Below, one piece after another: positions 12,570 to 48,571 of a stretch of DNA of 64,000 bases (the stretch's first letter is position 1; each line of letters starts with the position of its first letter). Made by a program: the position numbers and the translations under genes. The notes below the pieces were generated by a model, which was not told where the DNA came from, did no database searches, and saw only the letters and a program-made list of their open reading frames with translations. This stretch comes from Deltaproteobacteria bacterium (GTDB lineage: Bacteria > Desulfobacterota > GWC2-55-46). The stretch lies in the NCBI GenBank assembly GCA_016234935.1, contig JACRNL010000003.1, forward strand, positions 62,001-126,000. Direction: 5' to 3'.

Positions 12570-12585
12570 GCCGTTTCCTTCCTTA

Positions 12586-14346: not shown

Positions 14347-14399
14347 TCCCCCACCCTGCCCTCCCCCGTGAAGGGGGAGGATAAAAGGAAGGGGTCATC
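14347..14399. repeat. cctcccccgtgaagggggagg repeat (R7), uninterrupted copy
   Basis: CCCCCACCCTG then CCCTCCCCCGTGAAGGGGGA and GGATAAAAGGAAGGGG. This is the uninterrupted reference for the copy in pcrA (47061-47152), where a 36-bp palindrome sits in the GTGAA loop. It lies just 5' of the gene at 14409. Confidence 0.75.
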
Positions 14400-14408
14400 A
14401 CGGTTAAA

Positions 14409-15497
14409 ATGGACAGCCTGAAAACGAATATATTCATAATAGACGACGAAGAGCCGATAAGGAAGGTTCTGAGCACCCACCTTACCAAAGAAGGCTACAA
14501 CGTAATACAGTCTTCCGGCGGCAAAGGCATCTTCGACTCTCTCAAGGCGGGCACATTCGATATGGTCATCTGCGACATAAAGATGCCGGATATCGAAGGC
14601 ACCCTTATACTCGAATTCATCCGTGATAACTTCGATACCGTGCCGGTGATCATGCTTACCGGGCTTACGGACGTGGCCGTGGCCGTCGACGTGATGAGAA
14701 GGGGCGCCTTTGATTATATTATGAAGCCGGTGAAGAAGGAAGACCTTTTGAACGCCATAAGAAAGGCCATGATGCACCGCGGCCTTCTTATCAGAAACCG
14801 CCAGCTTGAAAAGGAGAACAGGGACTATCAGCTCTTTCTCGAGGAAAAGGTGCATGAGAGGACGAAAGAGCTTGATACGAAGACAAGGGCGCTGGAGGAC
14901 GCGTATCTCGTGGTAAAGTCCATGAACATCCAGTTTGCCACGGCCCTTGCCGAATTCATCGAGGCAAAGGACCGCCACACGAGAGGCCACTGCAACCGCA
15001 TGCGCCGCCTTTGCGTGGAGCTCGGGACGGCCGCGGGAATGAACGACAGGGAAATTGAAACCATCGAGTACGCCTCCCTGCTGCACGACCTCGGCAAGGT
15101 CGGGGTGAACGAGGAGATACTCAATAAGGAAGGGCCTCTCACCGAGGAGGAAAGCAGGCGCATGAAGGCGCATCCTGAGATCGGCGAGAAGATACTCATG
15201 GGGATACCCCTCATGGAAGACGTCGCAAAGGTGATGGTGGCGCACCACGAGAACTACGACGGCAGCGGATACCCCAGGGGCCTCAGAGGGGAAGCAATCC
15301 CCCTCAGCGCCCGTATCATCGCCGTCGCCGATATATACGACGCGATGGCAAGCGACAGGCCGTACAGGAAGGGACTGCCCCTTGAAGTGATATCCGCGGA
15401 GATGAGAAAGGTCGCAGGCACGCAGCTTGACCCCGCCATTGTGGAGCTGTTCATCGAAAAGAAGATTTACAACGCAACCATGGAACCTCAGGTTTAA
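14409..15497 (+). CDS. Receiver-HD-GYP response regulator
   Basis: The 362-residue protein joins an N-terminal receiver domain (FIIDDEEP, acceptor Asp56 in ICDIKMP, conserved Lys in IMKPVKKED) to a coiled linker and an HD-GYP domain from about residue 180. The HD-GYP part has HTRGHCNRMRRLC, LLHDLGKVGV, HHENYDGSGYPRGLRGEAIP and SDRPYRKGL. It therefore probably degrades cyclic di-GMP under phosphorylation control. It diverges from the kinase gene at 12747 and is followed at once by a single-domain receiver. GGAAGGGG lies about 15 bases before the start. Confidence 0.93.
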   Translation: MDSLKTNIFIIDDEEPIRKVLSTHLTKEGYNVIQSSGGKGIFDSLKAGTFDMVICDIKMPDIEGTLILEFIRDNFDTVPVIMLTGLTDVAVAVDVMRRGAFDYIMKPVKKEDLLNAIRKAMMHRGLLIRNRQLEKENRDYQLFLEEKVHERTKELDTKTRALEDAYLVVKSMNIQFATALAEFIEAKDRHTRGHCNRMRRLCVELGTAAGMNDREIETIEYASLLHDLGKVGVNEEILNKEGPLTEEESRRMKAHPEIGEKILMGIPLMEDVAKVMVAHHENYDGSGYPRGLRGEAIPLSARIIAVADIYDAMASDRPYRKGLPLEVISAEMRKVAGTQLDPAIVELFIEKKIYNATMEPQV

Positions 15498-19738: not shown

Positions 19739-19755
19739 CTTTACGGCAGTATTTA

Positions 19756-20219: not shown

Positions 20220-20404
20220 TTTTTCTCCTTTTTTATTTTTATGTGCCGGCGCCGTCCGCTTTTCAGCGGCCGCGCCGCGCGAGACATCACGAGACTGTTT
20301 TTGTAACCCGCTCTCAAGGCCGGCTGAGAGCCGCCTCATGGCGATATCAGCACGATTTTCTTAAATAATAGCCTACAATCCGTAAAGTTGCAAGTCCAAA
20401 CCTG

Positions 20405-20535
20405 CCTTTCTTGAAAGAAAGGCGCTGCGCACGGCTAAAGCCTGAATACAACCATTTAGCCATGTCCCCGCAGGCCTGCCCTCGCGTGTCTAAAGCGGGG
20501 GTTTTAAGCGGGGATTTGCCCGCCGCAGGGGCCAA
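20405..20535. repeat. cctttcttgaaagaaagg hairpin plus composite gagggcaggc block
   Basis: CCTTTCTTGAAAGAAAGG (20405-20422) is a near-perfect hairpin, also seen at 40835-40862 and 45999-46016. It is followed by GCGCACGGCTAAAGCCTGAA. Then TGTCCCCGCAGGCCTGCCCT and CGCGTGTCTAAAGCGGGGG form an inverted copy of the small element. This explains most of the 329-base gap 20220-20548; I see no gene in it. Confidence 0.65.
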
Positions 20536-20548
20536 AGAACTTTAATTT

Positions 20549-21370
20549 TTAAAACCTTGTTTGCCGCAGGTTGTCAACAAGCTGTCTGAATGAAGGATGG
20601 TAGGGGCCGTCCACGATGCTTTCCCGAAGCTCCGTTGTTGGCTGAAGGCCCATGCGGACAATAGGTATGCCTGCTTGATTGAAGAGCGTTAAGATCCTTT
20701 CGCAGATTTTAACCATCTCATCTAAAGGCCACGGCGAATACTGCCCGTCGAGATACATCCTGTGGAGCGCGGTGCCCTTCAGCACAAGCGCGGGATAGAC
20801 CCGCGCAAATGCGGGCCTCAGTGCGATCATCTCCTCCGCGGTCTTTATTATCGCGGCCTCGGTGTCACCGGGAAGCCCCGGCATGAACTGCAGGCCGACG
20901 GTCAGCCCATGCTCTTTAAGCAGACGCACGGCCTCTATGCTGTCATTGACCCCGTGCCCCCTGCCGGACAACTTTAAAACTTCATCATCCATTGACTGAA
21001 CGCCGAGCTCGACCGTCTTAACGCCGTAGGCCGTGAGTAGTTCCACAGTTTCGTTTGATACGCAGTCAGGCCGCGTCGAGACGCGCAGCGAATCAAGCCC
21101 GCCTGAGCGCACATACCCGAATGCAACTTCGAGATAACGTCTTTGCGTTTCAACCGGCAGCGCGGTGAAGGTGCCGCCGTAGAAGGCCGCCTCTTTTTCT
21201 CCAGAGCCTTTCCACGACGCAAGGTGGCTTTCGATGACGCGGGTAACGTCGCCGGCAGACGGCATCTGTCCCTTGCCTGTAATCCCCTCCTGATCGCAAA
21301 ACACGCACCTGCTGGGACACCCGGCAAACGGGATGAATATGGGTATGATGAGGCGCTTTTTTTTGGACAT
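20549..21370 (-). CDS. Radical SAM protein with Elp3/HemN-like core
   Basis: The 273-residue protein has the radical SAM iron-sulfur motif in FAGCPSRCVFCDQE (C-x3-C-x2-C near residue 15). The AFYGGTFTALP and LRVSTRPDCV segments mark the Elp3-like radical SAM family (COG1243-type). GVQSMDDEVL and LMPGLPGDTE-like QFMPGLPGDT are further family motifs. No acetyltransferase domain is present, so it is the short form; its substrate is unknown. The start is set at ATG 21370 because the frame upstream runs through repeat sequence. It lies just downstream of rnc. Confidence 0.85.
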   Translation of the reverse strand: MSKKKRLIIPIFIPFAGCPSRCVFCDQEGITGKGQMPSAGDVTRVIESHLASWKGSGEKEAAFYGGTFTALPVETQRRYLEVAFGYVRSGGLDSLRVSTRPDCVSNETVELLTAYGVKTVELGVQSMDDEVLKLSGRGHGVNDSIEAVRLLKEHGLTVGLQFMPGLPGDTEAAIIKTAEEMIALRPAFARVYPALVLKGTALHRMYLDGQYSPWPLDEMVKICERILTLFNQAGIPIVRMGLQPTTELRESIVDGPYHPSFRQLVDNLRQTRF

Positions 21371-27229: not shown

Positions 27230-28330
27230 ATGGAGAAGTTCAGCTTTCTTTCAAATAAAGAGTTCCGCAAACTTGTCGAGGGGCTTACAGGCTCCTTTAC
27301 AGTTTACGGAACCGTGCGAAAGGACGCGCGCCTGTCGGCGGCCGGGGACGGCTTCCCGGCGTATGGCCGCATCTCCTGTTTCGAGGATCTCGTCCTCGGC
27401 CTGACGCCGACACATCTGAGCGCAAAGGAATTCCTGTTTCCCCAGCGTGAAACCCTCTTGAAATTCGACATAGAAAAAATGACGCACGCGGCCGTGGTGG
27501 AGGCGGTGGATCAGGTTATCATCGGCCTGCACCCATGCGACATCCACGCCGTCGGCCTGATGGACAGGGTCTTTGCATACGGCAAGCCGGACGTAAATTA
27601 CCTCGCGCGCAGGGCAAAGACCGTCATCATCGGCACGGACTGCATGCCGGACAGGTTTTGCTTCTGCAAAAGCGTGGATACAATGAACGTGGACGCCGGA
27701 TTCGACATCTTCCTTCACAGGGTGAAAGGGGTTGAACCCCCTCAGGGGGCTGGGCCCCCACAGAACGGTTTCCTTGTCAGGACGGCCACGGACAGGGGCA
27801 AAACGATACTTTCAAAATACGCCAAAGCTAAAAAAGCCTCGTTAAAACAGCTCGATGAGATTGCCGCCTTCGAGAAAAAGAGGGAGGATTCCTTTACCGC
27901 GCATATAGACGCCCCGGCCGGCCAACTCCCGGAGATATACTCAAAGAGCGATGAAAGCCCGGTGTGGGAGCGGATAGGCGCTATTTGCTACGGTTGCGGC
28001 TCCTGCAACAACGTCTGCCCGACCTGTTATTGCTTTGACGTGAAGGACGAGATGAAATCGAACCTGAACGAAGGCGAGCGCGTCCGCGTCTGGGACGGAT
28101 GCACCCTTGAGGATTTTGCCAAGGTGACTGGCGGACATAACTTCAGGAGGACGCGTTCAGACAGGCTTCGCCACCGCTTTAACAGGAAGTTCAATTACCT
28201 CACCGGCAGATTCGGCGCTCTTTTCTGCGTGGGCTGCGGCAGGTGTTCAAGGACCTGCCTTGTGCAGATTAATATCTCGGAAGTGACGAATGAACTCATA
28301 CGGGAATACAATGCCAAAAAGCGGCAGTAG
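27230..28330 (+). CDS. 4Fe-4S protein, AsrA / sulfhydrogenase beta-like
   Basis: The 366-residue protein matches the iron-sulfur subunit of anaerobic sulfite reductase (AsrA) or of 3b-type hydrogenases (HydB): PQRETLLKFD, IIGLHPCDIHAVGLMD, and a C-terminal pair of 4Fe-4S motifs (CYGCGSCNNVCPTC and CVGCGRCSRTC). It transfers electrons between ferredoxin-like donors and the flavoprotein encoded next. Residues about 167-178 (GVEPPQGAGPPQ) are encoded by a copy of the dispersed palindrome inserted in frame. No AsrC or hydrogenase subunit follows, so the redox partner is unknown. Confidence 0.85.
   Translation: MEKFSFLSNKEFRKLVEGLTGSFTVYGTVRKDARLSAAGDGFPAYGRISCFEDLVLGLTPTHLSAKEFLFPQRETLLKFDIEKMTHAAVVEAVDQVIIGLHPCDIHAVGLMDRVFAYGKPDVNYLARRAKTVIIGTDCMPDRFCFCKSVDTMNVDAGFDIFLHRVKGVEPPQGAGPPQNGFLVRTATDRGKTILSKYAKAKKASLKQLDEIAAFEKKREDSFTAHIDAPAGQLPEIYSKSDESPVWERIGAICYGCGSCNNVCPTCYCFDVKDEMKSNLNEGERVRVWDGCTLEDFAKVTGGHNFRRTRSDRLRHRFNRKFNYLTGRFGALFCVGCGRCSRTCLVQINISEVTNELIREYNAKKRQ
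27728..27763. repeat. In-frame coding palindrome in the AsrA-like gene
   Basis: GGGGTTGAACCCCCTCAGGG continues GGCTGGGCCCCCACAG. It is translated GVEPPQGAGPPQ. Thirty-six bases equal twelve codons. Confidence 0.8.
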
Positions 28331-29430: not shown

Positions 29431-29468
29431 TTGAACCCCTTCAAGGGGTTCAACCCCCTCAGGGGGCG
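29431..29468. repeat. Coding-palindrome copy at the 5' end of comEC
   Basis: TTGAACCCCTTCAAGGGGTT continues CAACCCCCTCAGGGGG. It could encode NPFKGFNPLRG if translation began at TTG 29431. Confidence 0.75.
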
Positions 29469-33640: not shown

Positions 33641-34864
33641 TCATTTTTTCCTGAATGCCGCCTTTGCGGCGTCAATTACCTCTTTGAGGGGGACCTTTTT
33701 TTTGGCGGCTATCGCCCGGCATTCGTCGTATTCAGGTTGTATGTTCACAGGTTTTCCGTTCCTGAGGGATACCTTGAAGCCGACGGTTCCGTAAGGTGTT
33801 TTTACCTTGACGGTCTTTCGCCCAAGGCAATGCCTTTCAACGGCGTAAGACCTTACGCCTATCGAGGTTGATTCCCTGAAGATGGCGTCAACTATGCCGC
33901 TTACCCTGTCACCTTCGGCAAGGGCGCTCAAAAGTATGCCGGGCCTTGTTTTTTTCATCTGCACCGGCGTGAAGTAGACGTCAAGCGCTCCTGCGGCAAA
34001 GAGGGTTTCCATCAGGTATCCGGCTATCTGCGGGCTCATGTCGTCTATGTTCGTTTCTATCATGAAAAGTTTTTCCGCGCCGCGCGCCTGTCCGTTATCG
34101 GCGTGGGGGCTGAGCCCCCTGAGGGGGCCGAGCCCTTTCAACCCGTCCGGCATGACCCCGGTTACCGCGCGCAGCACGTTGGCGCGCTCCTTAAAATCCT
34201 TCTTACCCGCGCCGTAGCCGGTATCTTCGATAATCATGTCCGGTATCGGCCCGAAGCCTGAGGCAATGGTCTTTACAATTGCCGCGCCCGTGGGCGTCGT
34301 AAGTTCAAAGGGCGCGTCTGAAGACAATACCGGCACGCCTTTTAAAAGTTCCACTGTGGCTGGCGCCGGGATGGGCAGTGTGCCGTGCATGGTCTTTGCC
34401 CAGCCGGAACCGAGCGGGATCGGCGAAGAGATGACCCTGTCGGCCTTCAGCGACGTCACGGCAACGGCCGCGCCGACTATGTCTATGATGGAGTCCATTG
34501 CGCCGACCTCGTGGAAGTGCACCTTTTGGGCGCTTATCCCGTGTATCCTGCCCTCTGCCGCGGCGATGTTTTTGAATATGGCGACGCTTAAATCCTTTAC
34601 CTCTTTCGAAAGGGCGCTCGCGGATATGATATTTTTTATGTCCTTGAATGTCCTGTGGCGGTGCTCGTGCATATGCGCCGCCCTGAAGGACGTGGCCGTG
34701 ATGGAGTGGCGCGTCTCTTTGGCAATCTTCACTTTAACGGGGCCCAGGCCGAGCTTTTCTATCTCGCGCAGTATGGCCCTTGAGTCGGCTCCGAGGTCTA
34801 TAAGCGCGGCCAGGAACATGTCGCCGCTTATGCCCATCGGGCAGTCTAAATACAGTATCTTCAT
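33641..34864 (-). CDS. larC: Nickel-pincer cofactor insertion protein LarC
   Basis: LarC inserts nickel into the pyridinium-dithiocarboxylate cofactor used by lactate racemase and related enzymes (CTP-dependent cyclometallase). The 407 residues show the start YLDCPMGISGDMFLAALIDL, the His-rich HMHEHRHRTFKDI, VHFHEVGAMDSIIDIVG, LTTPTGAAI and the C-terminal IETNIDDMSPQIAGYL. Residues about 241-254 (LKGLGPLRGLSP) are an in-frame palindrome copy between the N- and C-terminal halves. It starts directly after the stop of the upstream gene. larB is three genes upstream; no larA or larE is in the window. Confidence 0.94.
   Translation of the reverse strand: MKILYLDCPMGISGDMFLAALIDLGADSRAILREIEKLGLGPVKVKIAKETRHSITATSFRAAHMHEHRHRTFKDIKNIISASALSKEVKDLSVAIFKNIAAAEGRIHGISAQKVHFHEVGAMDSIIDIVGAAVAVTSLKADRVISSPIPLGSGWAKTMHGTLPIPAPATVELLKGVPVLSSDAPFELTTPTGAAIVKTIASGFGPIPDMIIEDTGYGAGKKDFKERANVLRAVTGVMPDGLKGLGPLRGLSPHADNGQARGAEKLFMIETNIDDMSPQIAGYLMETLFAAGALDVYFTPVQMKKTRPGILLSALAEGDRVSGIVDAIFRESTSIGVRSYAVERHCLGRKTVKVKTPYGTVGFKVSLRNGKPVNIQPEYDECRAIAAKKKVPLKEVIDAAKAAFRKK
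34105..34144. repeat. In-frame coding palindrome in larC
   Basis: GGGGGCTGAGCCCCCTGAGG continues GGGCCGAGCCCTTTCAACCC. On the larC strand it reads LKGLGPLRGLSP. Confidence 0.8.
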
Positions 34865-35447: not shown

Positions 35448-35783
35448 TTATTTTCTTCCGGTTAATTTTTCCATGAGGGTCTCGGCGCTTAGGTCCCAGT
35501 ATGCGTCCCAGACCTGCTTGGTCTGTTCTGACATGTTTGCAAGACCGCCCTTGCCGTCAAGGTGCTTGTAGTTTTCTATTCTCGCCTGCATGCTTTTAAC
35601 GTTTATGCCGAAGGCCCCGGCAAGCTCCTTGATGTCCTTTTGCGCAAGGTTTATCTTCTTTTCCTGCTCGACCTTGTAAAGATACAGGGCCAGCATATCG
35701 TCTTTTAGCGTCCACTCGTGCTGTTCTTCCGCCCCTTGAAGGGGCTGAGCCCCCTCAGGGGGTTCAACATGTTTTTTTCCCAA
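35448..35783 (-). CDS. Small hypothetical protein carrying the GVEPPEGAQPLQ insert
   Basis: The 111-residue protein starts at TTG 35783 with GGGGGAG upstream. After five residues (MGKKH) comes VEPPEGAQPLQG, encoded by the dispersed palindrome, so the start of the protein has been rebuilt by the repeat. The rest is helical: WTLKDDMLALYLYKVEQ, KDIKELAGAFGINVKSMQAR (helix-turn-helix-like) and AYWDLSAETLMEKL. I do not recognise the family. It lies between larB and the next gene of the lar cluster. Confidence 0.65.
   Translation of the reverse strand: MGKKHVEPPEGAQPLQGAEEQHEWTLKDDMLALYLYKVEQEKKINLAQKDIKELAGAFGINVKSMQARIENYKHLDGKGGLANMSEQTKQVWDAYWDLSAETLMEKLTGRK
35736..35769. repeat. In-frame coding palindrome near a protein N-terminus
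   Basis: TTGAAGGGGCTGAGCCCCCT continues CAGGGGGTTCAACA. On the gene strand it reads VEPPEGAQPLQ, the same register as in cheW and pcrA. Confidence 0.8.
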
Positions 35784-38910: not shown

Positions 38911-39408
38911 CTATTGTTCCGACAATATTTTTTTTGTTTCTTCGAAGACCGCCGCCAGGTCAATAAGCTCCACCCCTTGAAGGGGCTGAGCCCCCTCAGG
39001 GGGTTCGCCCTGGCGGGATTGTTCCACATCTATCATACCGTTTGTGAATCTGGGCGTTCCTTCTGACATATCTTCCGGTGAGCCGAGGAAGGCATGAGCG
39101 TTTTTTATCTTTTCTTTCCATATAAAGGACAGGGCGCCGCCGTCAATGTCAAGGCCCACCATCCTGTTCCTGTCCCGGATGACGATTATTTTATGCGGCG
39201 TGCCGCTGCTTGCGTCTTCAGGGGCGCCGAGCGCCTTCCTGCAGTCTATGACCGTGACGGGCTCGCCCATGAGGCTTACCATGCCGTTTACAAAGCCGGA
39301 TTGGCCGGGGATGAAGAAGACCCTGTCGACTTCGAGTATCTTGTGAACGGCCTCTATGTCTATCCCGAAGGTCCTTTCGCCGATTTTGAAGGCTATCTTG
39401 TCTCCCAT
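38911..39408 (-). CDS. cheW: CheW-like coupling protein with repeat-derived insert
   Basis: The 165-residue CheW domain couples receptors to CheA. It has FKIGERTFGIDIEAVHKILE, RVFFIPGQSGFVNGMVSLMG, VTVIDCRKALG and a C-terminal VELIDLAAVFEE. Residues 135-146 (GEPPEGAQPLQG) are encoded by a copy of the coding palindrome. They sit in the loop just before the last conserved strand, a position that probably tolerates extra length. It lies between the MCP gene and cheY. Confidence 0.9.
   Translation of the reverse strand: MGDKIAFKIGERTFGIDIEAVHKILEVDRVFFIPGQSGFVNGMVSLMGEPVTVIDCRKALGAPEDASSGTPHKIIVIRDRNRMVGLDIDGGALSFIWKEKIKNAHAFLGSPEDMSEGTPRFTNGMIDVEQSRQGEPPEGAQPLQGVELIDLAAVFEETKKILSEQ
38973..39006. 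repeat. In-frame coding palindrome in cheW
   Basis: CCCCTTGAAGGGGCTGAGCC continues CCCTCAGGGGGTTC. On the gene strand it reads EPPEGAQPLQG, in the same register as the pcrA copy. Confidence 0.8.
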
Positions 39409-44512: not shown

Positions 44513-45013
44513 TTATTCGCAGTCTTCAGATTCTATGGGGATGCGCATTGAGGCGGAGCGGTTGTCCTTTATGCGCGCCGCGGTTATCGTCAGGATGCCG
44601 TTTTCGTAAGCGGCCTTTATCTTCGATGCGTCCACGGTGAAGGGGATGTCTATCTCCCGGCAGACCTTGCCGAAGACCCGTTCCATGCATACGTAGTTGA
44701 TTCTGTTGTCCTCGAAGCATTCGAACTTCAGGGCCTTCACGGTGAGGGTGCGTCCGGCCAAGACTATCTCGACGTCTTCCTTCCTTACTCCGGGCATCTC
44801 GACTTCTATTATGAGTTTGCCGGATGTGGAGAACATGTCAACATTCGGGATGTTGACAAGGGGGTTGGCCTCTGTCAATCCCTGCGTATCGTCCATGCCT
44901 TCGTCAAGGAGTCCTTTGATGCCGCCTATCTCGAAAGATGTAAACGGCGATGTCGGTTTCTTTGATATCTTGGCCATCTTGTTTGCCGCCTTCGGGGTAT
45001 CCATGCGGAGCAT
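44513..45013 (-). CDS. Hsp20 family small heat-shock protein
   Basis: This 166-residue protein has an N-terminal extension and an alpha-crystallin-type domain at about residues 55-165: VDMFSTSGKLIIEVEMPGVR, VEIVLAGRTLTVKA, CREIDIPFTVDASKIKAAYENG and LTITAAR. It holds unfolding proteins in a refoldable state. ATGs at 45013 and 45004 are both possible starts, neither with a good ribosome site. The tail SMRIPIES matches the C-terminal IxI-type motif loosely. It precedes lon and may be cotranscribed with it. Confidence 0.85.
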   Translation of the reverse strand: MLRMDTPKAANKMAKISKKPTSPFTSFEIGGIKGLLDEGMDDTQGLTEANPLVNIPNVDMFSTSGKLIIEVEMPGVRKEDVEIVLAGRTLTVKALKFECFEDNRINYVCMERVFGKVCREIDIPFTVDASKIKAAYENGILTITAARIKDNRSASMRIPIESEDCE

Positions 45014-45025
45014 GGGCCGGGGACT

Positions 45026-45083
45026 TCCCCGCTTAAAGCCCCCGCTTTAGACACGCGAGGGCAGGCCTGCGGGGACATGTTTT
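45026..45083. repeat. Composite cccccgctt/gcgagggcaggc element with ggggacatg tail
   Basis: CCCCGCTTAAAGCCCCCGCT followed by TTAGACACGCGAGGGCAGGC and CTGCGGGGACATGTTTTGAG. It is the long form of the small element, between galU and hsp20. Confidence 0.7.
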
Positions 45084-45092
45084 GAGCGGCCC

Positions 45093-45953
45093 TTAAAGCT
45101 CCAGCCCCTTTAAAAACCGCTTGAATGCGTTCTTCATGTCATGGCGTTTTAAGGCGAATGAGACGTTTGCCTTCAAAAAACCCATCTTGTCGCCTGCATC
45201 GTAGCGCGTCCCCTTGAATTCATAGGCGTAGACAGCCTCTTTTTTAAGGAGGATCCTGAGCGCGTCCGTGAGCTGTATCTCGCCGCCCTTGCCGGGTTTG
45301 GTTATGTCAAGCGCGCCGAAGATGCCCTGTGACAGGATGTATCTGCCGATAATGGCAAGGTTTGAAGGCGGCACACCTTTGGGTTTTTCAACGAGGTCGG
45401 TAACCCTGTAGACGCCGGGGGCGACCTGTTTGCCGCTTACGATGCCGTAGAGGTGGGCCTGTTTTTCCGGCACACGCTCGACGGCAAGGATGGTGGATCT
45501 GTATTTATTGTATACGCCGGTCATCTGTTTCATCACCGGAATCCGCGAGTCTATCACGTCGTCGGAGAGGAATACCGCGAACGGCTCGTTGTTTATAAGG
45601 TTTTTTGTGATGTGGATGGCATGTCCGAGGCCAAGCGGCTTTTTCTGGCGCGTATAGGCGAAATGCACCAGCGTCGAGACTTCATCCATGATCTTTAAAA
45701 GTTCGTGCTTGCCGCGTTCCTTTAAGAGTATTTCAAGCTCAAAAGACGTGTCGAAGTGGTCTTCGATGGCTGTCTTTCCCATGCCTGTGACGATTATTAT
45801 CTCTTCAAGCCCGGAGGCCTTTGCCTCCTCGACTGAATACTGTATCAGGGGCTTGTCTACGAGAGGCAGCATCTCCTTCGGGATGGCCTTTGTCGCAGGC
45901 AGAAATCTTGTGCCGAAGCCGGCGGCAGGGAACACGGCCTTCTTGATCTTCAT
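45093..45953 (-). CDS. galU: UTP-glucose-1-phosphate uridylyltransferase
   Basis: GalU makes UDP-glucose from UTP and glucose 1-phosphate for polysaccharide synthesis. The 286 residues have the nucleotide-binding start AVFPAAGFGTRFLPATKAIP then KEMLPLVDKPLIQY, the KPLGLGHAI segment, FLSDDVID with the metal-binding aspartate, VEKPKGVPPSNLAIIGRY, and GKGGEIQLTDALR. All conserved parts are present. It stands between repeats on both sides; glgA, which uses ADP-glucose, is 3 kb away. Confidence 0.96.
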   Translation of the reverse strand: MKIKKAVFPAAGFGTRFLPATKAIPKEMLPLVDKPLIQYSVEEAKASGLEEIIIVTGMGKTAIEDHFDTSFELEILLKERGKHELLKIMDEVSTLVHFAYTRQKKPLGLGHAIHITKNLINNEPFAVFLSDDVIDSRIPVMKQMTGVYNKYRSTILAVERVPEKQAHLYGIVSGKQVAPGVYRVTDLVEKPKGVPPSNLAIIGRYILSQGIFGALDITKPGKGGEIQLTDALRILLKKEAVYAYEFKGTRYDAGDKMGFLKANVSFALKRHDMKNAFKRFLKGLEL

Positions 45954-45998
45954 AATAATGAATGATAATAAGTTTTCCGGTGGAAGTCAAGCGGCCTG

Positions 45999-46083
45999 CC
46001 TTTCTTGAAAGAAAGGTTCTGCGCACGGCTAAAGCCTCAATGCAACCTTTTAGTTTTGCCCGCCGCAGGCGCCGAAGAACTTT
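45999..46083. repeat. cctttcttgaaagaaagg hairpin with gcacggctaaagcc tail
   Basis: CCTTTCTTGAAAGAAAGG (45999-46016) is followed by GCGCACGGCTAAAGCC and by CCCGCCGCAGGC...AAGAACTTTAA. The same order occurs at 20405-20545, so the unit is about 85-130 bp long. Confidence 0.65.
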
Positions 46084-46150
46084 AATATTTCCTTTTTACC
46101 TTTTTTGAATATGTCACGCCGGAGTAGAGATGTCCGCGGCAAAGAAAATA

Positions 46151-48571
46151 TCACCCTATGGGCGTAAGGGAGGCGTACTTCAAGGCGAGCTTTCTCGTGC
46201 CGGCGTCTTTGAAGTTTATCGTCAGTTTTACGTCCTGGCCGCTTCCGGCTTTTTCCTTGATGACGCCGATGCCGAACATGGGGTGCTTGACCTTCATGCC
46301 GATGCGCCATCCGTCCTGTGCGCCGTCCTGTGTCCGGGGGGAGGATAGTTCTCCGGTCACGCCGCCTTTTACCTGGCTGTCTTCGCGCGTGTAGTAGACC
46401 TCGCTGGATGAAAAACGGGGCTTTGCCTGCCGCTCGGAAGATTCGGCGATGGTTATGCGGGCCGGGTCTATCTCGTCAATGAACCTTGAGCGCATCTGCG
46501 TCTTTGTCTGTCCGTAGACCGTCCTCGACCTTGCCGCGAAGAGATAGAGCCGCTCCTTTGCGCGCGTCATGCCGACGTAGCAAAGGCGCCGCTCCTCCTC
46601 AAGCTCGCCTTCGTCGTCTGAGCTCCTCGTGTGCGGGAAGAGGCCCTCTTCCATGCCGGCGATGAAGACGGCCCTGAACTCAAGCCCCTTTGCCGAGTGG
46701 AGCGTCATGAGGGTCAGCCTGTCCGGCGCGTCCTCAAAGCTGTCAATGTCGCTGATCAGCGAGACGTGGTCGAGGAAGTCGGAAAGCGCGGCCATCGGGT
46801 TTATATGCTCGAAGTCCTTTATCGCAGCGATAAGTTCAAAGAGGTTTTCAAGCCGTTCAACGGCCTCCTCCGTGCCTTCCTCCTGCAAAGAGCGCATGTA
46901 GCCGGACTCTTCAAGGAGTTTTAAGGTCAGCCGGTGAAGCTGTTCTTTTTCCATCCCGCCGCCCGCGTTATCCTGCGGCGCGCAGTCCGGTGCCTCATGC
47001 GCATTTGTTGATCCGCCTGAATTTTCAAGCAGCGGCAGGCCGTGGATATTTATGACTCGCTGCCCCCCCACCCCGCCCTCCCCTTGAAGGGGCTGAGCCC
47101 CCTCAGGGGGTTCAACCCCCGTGAAGGGGGAGGATATAAGGAAGGGGGCATCGCTCAGGCCGCAGCCTTTTTTAAAGGCGTCAATGGCCCGGACGAATTC
47201 GTGCGCGCGGGTCTTTGTGAGCTGTCCGCCTGCAAGCATATCCTTGAGCGCATCGTAAGGCGTCAGACCGGAGGCGGCGCTTAGAGCTAAAATCCTGTCG
47301 AGCGTGGCCTTGCCTACGAGCCTTGCGGGCCTGTTTATGGCCCTCTGGAAGCTCAGGGCGTCGGCTGGGTTTACGGCCACGCGCAGGTAAGCAATGGCGT
47401 CTTTTATTTCAAGCCGGTCGTAAAAGCGCGTGCCGCCGATGATGGCGTAGGGGATGCCTTCCCTTATCAGCTGTTCTTCAAACACCCTGGACTGCGCGTT
47501 TGTCCGGTAGAATATGGCCGCGTCTTTATATGTGTAACGCCTGTGCTCGTCAAAGAGGCTCTTTATGCGCCTGATTATCAGTCTGGCCTCGGCGTATTCG
47601 TCGCCGGCCTCTTCGAACATCACGGGCTGGCCGTCCGAATTTTGCGTCCACAGCTCTTTTTTCAGCCGCTTTTTATTCTTTTCGATGACCGAGTTCGCCG
47701 CCGAGAGGATGTTTTTCGTGGAGCGGTAGTTTTGCTCAAGCCTCAGGACTGTCGCCGCAGGGTAGTCCTTTTCGAACTCAAGGATGTTGGATATGCACGC
47801 GCCCCTCCACGCGTAGATGGACTGGTCAGGGTCGCCCACGGCAAGGAGGTTGCCGGCCCCTTCGGCAAGCATCTGCGTGAAAAGGTATTGCGCCCGGTTC
47901 GTATCCTGATATTCGTCAACGAGGATGTGCCGGAAGCGGTCGTGGTATTTTTTAAGGATGTTCGCGTTTTGTTTCAGGAGCTTTATCGGCTCGCAGATAA
48001 GGTCGCCGAAGTCCATGGAGTTCATCTGCCGCAGTTTTTTCTGGTAGAGCGCATAGACCTTCGCCGCCCGCTCCGCCGCAAAGCCGCCGCCCTCGTTCAT
48101 GGAAAGGAAGCTCTCAGGCGTGATGTTTTCGTTCTTTGCCTGGTTTATCTGCGAGAGCATGGCGCGAGGGGCAAAGCTCTTTTCGCTGAGGAGCAGTTCG
48201 GCCATGACCTGCTTCACGAGAGAGAGCTGGTCGTCGTCGTTGTAGACCGTCAGGTCGGCGTTGACGCCTGAACTTCTTCTTTCAGTCCTTAGAATCCTCA
48301 GGCCTATGGAATGGAAGGTGCCGAGCCAGAGCTCGCGCGCCTTGTCCCCCATCAGGGATTCAAGGCGCATACGCATCTCCCCCGCGGCCTTGTTGGTGAA
48401 TGTCACGGCAAGGATGCTATGCGCCGGAACGCCCCTGTGCATGACGAGATATGCCACCCTTGAGGTCAGCACCTTTGTCTTTCCGCTTCCGGCCCCGGCC
48501 AGAATAAGAAGCGGCCCGTCCGGCGCGGTTGCGGCCTCAAGCTGAGTGGGGTTAAGGGTCTTCAGGAACAT
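46151..48571 (-). CDS. pcrA: UvrD/PcrA-family DNA helicase
   Basis: This superfamily 1A 3'-5' helicase acts in repair and in removing proteins from DNA. The 806 residues carry LAGAGSGKTKVLTSRVAYL (motif I), FTNKAAGEMRMRL (Ia), LVDEYQDTNRAQY (II), GDPDQSIYAWRGA (III), LEQNYRSTKNIL (IV), LMTLHSAKGLEF (V) and EERRLCYVGMTRAKERLYL (VI). The C-terminal KVKHPMFGIGVI tail is typical of PcrA. Around residues 475-500 a repeat-coded stretch (FLISSPFTGVEPPEGAQPLQ then GEGGVGG) interrupts the 2B subdomain region. It consists of one palindrome nested within another, both in frame. Confidence 0.95.
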   Translation of the reverse strand: MFLKTLNPTQLEAATAPDGPLLILAGAGSGKTKVLTSRVAYLVMHRGVPAHSILAVTFTNKAAGEMRMRLESLMGDKARELWLGTFHSIGLRILRTERRSSGVNADLTVYNDDDQLSLVKQVMAELLLSEKSFAPRAMLSQINQAKNENITPESFLSMNEGGGFAAERAAKVYALYQKKLRQMNSMDFGDLICEPIKLLKQNANILKKYHDRFRHILVDEYQDTNRAQYLFTQMLAEGAGNLLAVGDPDQSIYAWRGACISNILEFEKDYPAATVLRLEQNYRSTKNILSAANSVIEKNKKRLKKELWTQNSDGQPVMFEEAGDEYAEARLIIRRIKSLFDEHRRYTYKDAAIFYRTNAQSRVFEEQLIREGIPYAIIGGTRFYDRLEIKDAIAYLRVAVNPADALSFQRAINRPARLVGKATLDRILALSAASGLTPYDALKDMLAGGQLTKTRAHEFVRAIDAFKKGCGLSDAPFLISSPFTGVEPPEGAQPLQGEGGVGGQRVINIHGLPLLENSGGSTNAHEAPDCAPQDNAGGGMEKEQLHRLTLKLLEESGYMRSLQEEGTEEAVERLENLFELIAAIKDFEHINPMAALSDFLDHVSLISDIDSFEDAPDRLTLMTLHSAKGLEFRAVFIAGMEEGLFPHTRSSDDEGELEEERRLCYVGMTRAKERLYLFAARSRTVYGQTKTQMRSRFIDEIDPARITIAESSERQAKPRFSSSEVYYTREDSQVKGGVTGELSSPRTQDGAQDGWRIGMKVKHPMFGIGVIKEKAGSGQDVKLTINFKDAGTRKLALKYASLTPIG
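47061..47152. repeat. Nested palindromes inside pcrA
   Basis: The outer repeat is CCCCCCCACCCCGCCCTCCC ... GTGAAGGGGGAGGATATAAG and matches 14347-14399. Between its arms lies the 36-bp palindrome 47084-47119. Removing these 36 bases restores CCCTCCCCCGTGAAGGGGGA exactly. Confidence 0.9.
47084..47119. repeat. 36-bp coding palindrome in pcrA, reference copy
   Basis: TTGAAGGGGCTGAGCCCCCT continues CAGGGGGTTCAACCCC. It begins and ends on codon boundaries of pcrA (codons 485-496) and reads GVEPPEGAQPLQ. Confidence 0.88.

Follow-up and report, generated by a model that had tools for sequence, protein, structure and literature searches.

The helicase gene pcrA of a deltaproteobacterial genome carries one palindromic repeat within another, and the question raised by this locus is whether the arrangement preserves, as the original prediction held, a legible history of two insertions made by two different repeat families, each in frame. 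The nested repeat is real and the observation is confirmed in part, and its interpretation is partly supported; two in-frame insertions cannot be read cleanly from the nesting in pcrA. In the following, the repeat that supplies the two flanking halves is called the outer repeat and the 36 nt between them the inner element. The window is the whole 64-kb stretch of DNA that was analysed, itself part of a 2.15-Mb draft assembly in 15 contigs that is rated 100% complete and 0.48% contaminated.

The nested repeat lies in a private insert of pcrA

Both repeats are located where they had been placed, at 47061–47152 with 36 nt between the outer halves, and these 36 nt do fall in frame as pcrA codons 485–496 (Table 1). 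The outer repeat had been said to equal an intergenic copy at 14347–14399; after deletion of 47084–47119 it resembles that copy at 50 of 53 positions and is not identical to it, having three extra C residues. Five different 36-nt deletions (starting at 47080 through 47084) yield the identical product, and thus the empty site, which had been considered unambiguous, is fixed only within a CCCC run. The inner element had further been described as a simple palindrome seated exactly in the outer loop; it consists of two hairpins in tandem, built from C4 and G4 blocks in alternation, and its insertion point is the C-run next to the loop rather than strictly the loop itself. Its description as a mobile-like repeat inserted in frame holds. 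The un-nested copy at 14347–14399 shortly precedes a response-regulator gene whose start is at 14409; on inspection, the minus-strand ORF that seemingly contains this copy proves to be a histidine kinase gene extended too far upstream.

Table 1. Coordinates (window numbering) of pcrA, the nested repeat and further repeat copies
Feature	Position	Strand	Details
pcrA/uvrD helicase	46151..48571	-	806 aa; UvrD-helicase 1.8e-88, UvrD_C 3.4e-81, PcrA tudor
Whole in-frame pcrA insert, private to the genome	46940..47152	-	213 nt, 71 aa, residues 474-544
Non-repetitive part of pcrA insert	46940..47060	.	~120 nt, in neither repeat, single-copy
Outer repeat, left part	47061..47083	+	TGCCCCCCCACCCCGCCCTCCCC; agrees with 14347-14399 and some 50 further copies
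Inner 36-nt element	47084..47119	+	codons 485-496, VEPPEGAQPLQG; equivalent starts 47080-47084
Outer repeat, right part	47120..47152	+	CGTGAAGGGGGAGGATATAAGGAAGGGGGCATC; its end is one end of the pcrA insert
Un-nested outer repeat	14347..14399	+	intergenic
Inner array in predicted gene	27728..27759	+	GVEPPQGAGPPQ
Inner array, intergenic	29436..29466	+	
Inner array in larC	34105..34135	-	GLGPLRGLSPH; same gene as L157:942-2165
Inner array, intergenic	35732..35762	+	
Inner array in cheW-like gene	38973..39003	-	GEPPEGAQPLQG; same gene as L157:6212-6709

What the original prediction had missed is that the true in-frame, private insert is the whole of 46940–47152, which lies between FKKGCGLS and LHRLTLKLL. 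A comparison of pcrA in relatives had been proposed as a check, and the segment is shared by none of 40 homologues, whose sources range from members of the family to members of the class; in all 40 the helix ending in FxxG runs straight into the LHEL helix. Cutting out 46940–47152 gives FKKGCGLSLHRLTLKLL, with no stop and with the shape seen in the 40 relatives, whereas cutting out only 47061–47152 (outer plus inner, 92 nt) shifts the frame. As 92 mod 3 is 2, the outer repeat is not an in-frame insertion by itself in pcrA, which does not bear out the claim that two families each entered the gene in frame; the reading frame is closed only by the whole 213-nt insert. When the genome was searched for further copies of the non-repetitive part of the insert, none had an E value under 0.8.

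In an AlphaFold2 model made with a 16-sequence alignment, PcrA residues 475–541 have pLDDT values below 50 and lie between two helices. As the model has an overall mean pLDDT of 71 and a pTM of 0.41, it is used for local disorder only. The insert is absent from solved PcrA/UvrD, and its position in solved PcrA falls in what we take, from general knowledge of the subdomain limits, to be the 2B subdomain, away from the helicase motifs. With these motifs avoided, the insert would be tolerated in a flexible 2B loop.

Nesting recurs elsewhere in the genome

The outer repeat has 44 places in the genome by BLAST, which, like the count of the inner element given below, is far more than chance would give, and its hairpin is present in 26 of 29 same-family genomes with up to 118 hits. 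Of its placements 40 of 48 are intergenic, 6 genic (at least one of them spurious) and 2 at a gene edge. It is an older, family-wide, mostly intergenic palindrome of REP-like appearance. Among its genic copies, one is in frame inside metG (methionyl-tRNA synthetase; L085:1502-1555) and one in frame inside a moeA-like gene (L087:1026-1079). The outer loop may instead hold other inverted repeats (e.g. GCACCACTCGCC ... GGCGAGTGGTGC), further palindromes at that position, as at L145:12427, L089:2883, L154:716 and L022:123.

The proposed order of events, outer first and inner second, is borne out at the level of the families, with the outer repeat spread among same-family genomes and the inner element found in this genome only. 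It does not stand as a stepwise insertion in pcrA itself, as a genome search with the pcrA segment as query finds the whole composite also at C10:41547 (94%) and C1:150358 (93%), in both cases with an identical 36-nt inner element at an identical outer junction. A mirror arrangement, with the 36-nt inner element on the other side of the outer loop, is present at C7:349242. These three further composites had previously been overlooked. A pcrA form carrying the outer repeat only was found in none of the 40 homologues, the nearest genomes compared being from other genera than the source organism.

Because C10:41547 and C1:150358 have the same composite and junction, the unit may have reached pcrA pre-nested, in one event and not two, and we give this the same odds as its opposite; such an arrival competes with the stepwise order and is compatible with the explanation that we favour for the inner element below. 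Besides the shared junction, a second, larger compound palindrome (CCTCTCCCCTCGCGGGAGAGGGTAGGGTGAGGGGG...CCCCCACCCTACCC) argues for it: most often its loop contains an 18-nt inner insert (L015, L017, L019, L026, L029, L031, L033), located at a GGGGG run and amounting to a net 18 nt, and at least seven copies share the insert at the same G5 run with few empty ones (L021, L180), as if spread as a unit. However, the C1 composite shares the loop CGCGAG with L109, a copy without nesting, and this points to a separate nesting event; moreover, the inner element occupies the opposite side of the loop at C7:349242 and, in its 18-nt form, in the outer copies L018 and L023. Since composites or inner inserts are present at several loci, including these three and the compound repeat, nesting is recurrent, and the outer repeat would have acquired the inner element several times.

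The inner element is abundant in, and confined to, one genome

The canonical inner unit, CCCCTTGAAGGGGCTGAGCCCCCTCAGGGGGTTCAA, is a 36-nt double hairpin in which C4/G4 blocks alternate every 9 nt, separated by the palindromic 5-nt spacers TTGAA, CTGAG, TTCAA and CTCAG. Four of its six reading frames are open and give peptides of the GVEPPEGAQPLQ or GLNPLRGLSPFK type. At up to 3 mismatches the pattern GGGGCTGAGCCCCCTCAGGGGG has 311 hits in this genome (143 plus, 168 minus), counted as pattern hits and not as a curated census, with some near-palindromic sites hit twice; the reversed control pattern has 0 hits at the same threshold. The inner element is thus present at well over a hundred places, among them internal positions in many essential genes. 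Of 58 relatives, 56 lack the pattern and the other two have one weak hit apiece; at up to 2 mismatches there are 181 hits here versus 0–1 per genome in 394 others sampled from the phylum, where the hits are isolated and at chance level. With regard to an outside source, viral contigs contain no exact match and the composite has no plasmid match; matches to known RNAs in Rfam are sub-threshold only.

Flanks of the inner copies and the mode of spread

Our preferred reading, to which we assign a probability of about 0.75, is that the inner element is a dispersed double-hairpin element that has recently multiplied in this lineage only, enters intergenic DNA, other repeats and genes, and is copied through microhomology. 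It builds on the observed dispersal, restriction to this genome, net insertion lengths and in-frame residence in housekeeping genes. Inner copies would join at a C4/G4 run, such that every insertion that is exactly resolved lengthens the site by 36 nt, or by 18 nt where the half form is involved, with no frameshift. Copying would probably occur while DNA is replicated or repaired, via a folded single strand that re-pairs at C4/G4 microhomology, most likely by template switching and with no dedicated transposase.

The flanks of the copies bear on this point. Among 15 pristine inner copies, 10 have CCCC on both sides and 5 on one side only, the other flank of the latter being unrelated (e.g. CCAT, CAAT and CATG), and the left and right flanking 4-mers are identical in 36 of 108 near-complete copies. 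The flanks of the pristine copies seem to fit C4/G4 microhomology joining better than a fixed 4-nt target duplication, although the 10 copies with CCCC on both sides also fit the latter. A MITE-like, non-autonomous element, moved in trans by a putative GGGG/CCCC-cutting transposase with a 4-nt duplication, would account for these 10 copies, and the two RecJ sites described below can likewise be read as GGGG duplications. We nevertheless consider this mode of movement unlikely, in view of the 5 one-sided copies with their unrelated flanks and of termini that carry only TTGAA/TTCAA. Furthermore, the genome has no match to PF01797, the Y1_Tnp/RAYT transposase family, in a search for which the control was positive in 5 of 14 known genomes. 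The one-sided C4 junctions, as opposed to a fixed target duplication, together with the absence of a RAYT match, disfavour a dedicated transposase.

Two other candidate causes were set aside. RAYT as the driver of spread is rejected with no RAYT gene in the genome. Loss of SbcCD was considered as a cause of palindrome survival, SbcD not being found in the source genome; as SbcD likewise fails to reach the family cut-off in 29 of 30 relatives, its loss does not explain a private expansion.

Inner copies reside in genes without breaking the frame

In 426 kb sampled around hits, 95 inner arrays of at least 22 nt comprise 53 inside predicted genes, 36 intergenic and 6 at an edge, genes being called with a crude, simple codon-usage scan. 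As the sampled DNA is 86% coding, the arrays are depleted in genes relative to the coding fraction (binomial p 1e-9, edge cases left out), yet they are far from excluded. The hosts, identified from NCBIfam, include recQ, recJ (twice), leuS, nadE, ribE, dprA, cobA/hemD, cobD and a ddl-like ligase, as well as pgeF, rfaF, larC, ricT, cbiM and several histidine kinases; the gene at L160, first taken for gyrB, is a histidine kinase according to NCBIfam.

One-by-one alignment to relatives covers a minority of the genic copies. In alignments with solved structures, gaps mark the inner peptides of RecJ, LeuRS and riboflavin synthase, whereas the NadE peptide falls in an unaligned stretch. The clearest sites are those of RecJ, compared with 28 relatives: the first insert is exactly 12 amino acids at a conserved Gly-Val, and the second contains 12 amino acids of the element at a (K/R)-Gly-Ile/Val site. 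In the DNA, with codons read by eye, both lie at Gly codons, as CGA GGG–36 nt–GTA AAG and AAG GGG–36 nt–ATA GTC. The few residues that precede the second insert, LQGSGR, are also private and may be a decayed inner copy.

All exactly resolved inner insertions, those in noncoding repeats included, amount to +36 or +18 nt, and the element accordingly adds exactly 12 (or 6) amino acids per insertion without breaking the frame. As noncoding steps are also 18 or 36 nt, and the 9-nt block spacing is equal inside and outside genes, frame neutrality is a property of the element and not the outcome of selection. Among the genic copies, one of the two open frames per strand is used 29 times and the other 24 times, with 0 copies in the stop frame, a count that is biased because genes are called by their open frames and a stop-frame insertion would end the predicted gene. 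A more far-reaching proposal, that this is a selfish element whose grammar makes insertions frame-neutral at any copy length, so that it spreads in essential genes by template-switch copying in a host that is not a known endosymbiont, is put forward tentatively and is, on balance, somewhat doubtful.

The regular six-residue GxxPPx periodicity of the peptides, and the recurrence of two peptide types in many proteins, might alternatively mark the segments as selected, functional protein modules. This is very improbable given that intergenic copies share the same DNA grammar and spacing, that the arrays are depleted in genes relative to the coding fraction, that the hosts are as unrelated as RecJ and riboflavin synthase, and that the PcrA insert is predicted to be disordered. 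An assembly or binning artefact, conceivable in a draft assembly where repeats can collapse, is scarcely credible with copies spread over most of the 15 contigs of a genome of the above completeness and contamination, a frame open through all 213 nt and inner peptides sitting in conserved genes. The idea that PcrA has long contained the nested segment is refuted at the family level and can practically be dismissed, as this segment is missing from all 40 homologues (family, order and class) and from solved PcrA/UvrD, and no supporting evidence was found.

Other repeats in the window

The window contains further repeats. A MITE-like repeat of ~130 nt has six copies, at 12583, 19753, 29190, 38325, 48614 and 56786, which are 7–10 kb apart; it has the terminal inverted repeats CAGGCTGCTGAAAAAGCCCC ... 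GGGGCTTTTTGAGCAGCCTG, the copy at 19753 being without the right end, and its first copy has no Rfam match. More dispersed repeat families (D3, D4, D10 and D18) occur around GCGAGGGCAGG motifs (20401–20550, 45013–46090 and others).

DISCUSSION

Several classes of small repeats resemble the elements described here, by description. The small dispersed repeats (SDR) of cyanobacteria, the subject of work by Elhai et al. 2008 and mentioned in PMC3116915, are reportedly very small and mobile-looking and nest in other repeats, and the inner element is likewise very small and mobile-looking. Its closest counterparts in coding DNA are the palindromic elements of Rickettsia (RPE) and Wolbachia (Ogata et al. 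2000, 2002 and 2005; reviewed in PMC2229807 and PMC10969869). According to PMC2229807, RPEs are about 105–150 bp long, with 12-bp terminal inverted repeats and ORFs fused in frame. The likeness lies in a palindromic DNA that is dispersed in intergenic regions and, in frame, in unrelated conserved genes, where its peptide is tolerated. Unlike RPEs, the inner element is a 36-nt double hairpin with a 9-nt period and termini of TTGAA/TTCAA only, is frame-neutral by its length, and occurs in a Deltaproteobacterium-type host at a higher copy number. As length, termini and host differ, it is classed as RPE-like in kind and not as an RPE.

REP/REPIN sequences are small palindromes rich in GC that reach hundreds of copies, lie almost exclusively outside genes and are linked to a RAYT gene (PMC3116915). 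Short GC-rich palindromes in hundreds of copies are also what is seen here, and the outer repeat shares their mostly extragenic placement (40 intergenic, 6 genic, 2 edge), whereas the inner element is often genic (53 genic, 36 intergenic, 6 edge) and its genome is without a Y1_Tnp match. In architecture the inner element is similar to the double-hairpin elements of organelle genomes, two small tandem hairpins that are dispersed and in some cases lie within genes, as mentioned in PMC2800124, although the host here is bacterial. PARCELs, finally, are palindromic DNA encoding 25-residue repeats that are arrayed in ORFs of unassigned function and are horizontally spread (PMC2996958). The inner element also encodes a repeated peptide in palindromic DNA, but with a period of 6 residues and as single inserts of 6–12 amino acids in the housekeeping genes of one genome.

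For annotators, the PcrA insert carries a warning, as it is not a protein innovation. Most of what is known of coding palindromes comes from Rickettsia and Wolbachia, and the mechanism of their spread is unsettled. The inner family adds one that is very small, apparently young and very abundant, with many exactly resolvable sites, such as those in RecJ and in the nested repeats, and it illustrates that frame neutrality can be intrinsic to an element rather than due to selection. The source genome is suited to direct tests of the mechanism of spread and of protein tolerance.
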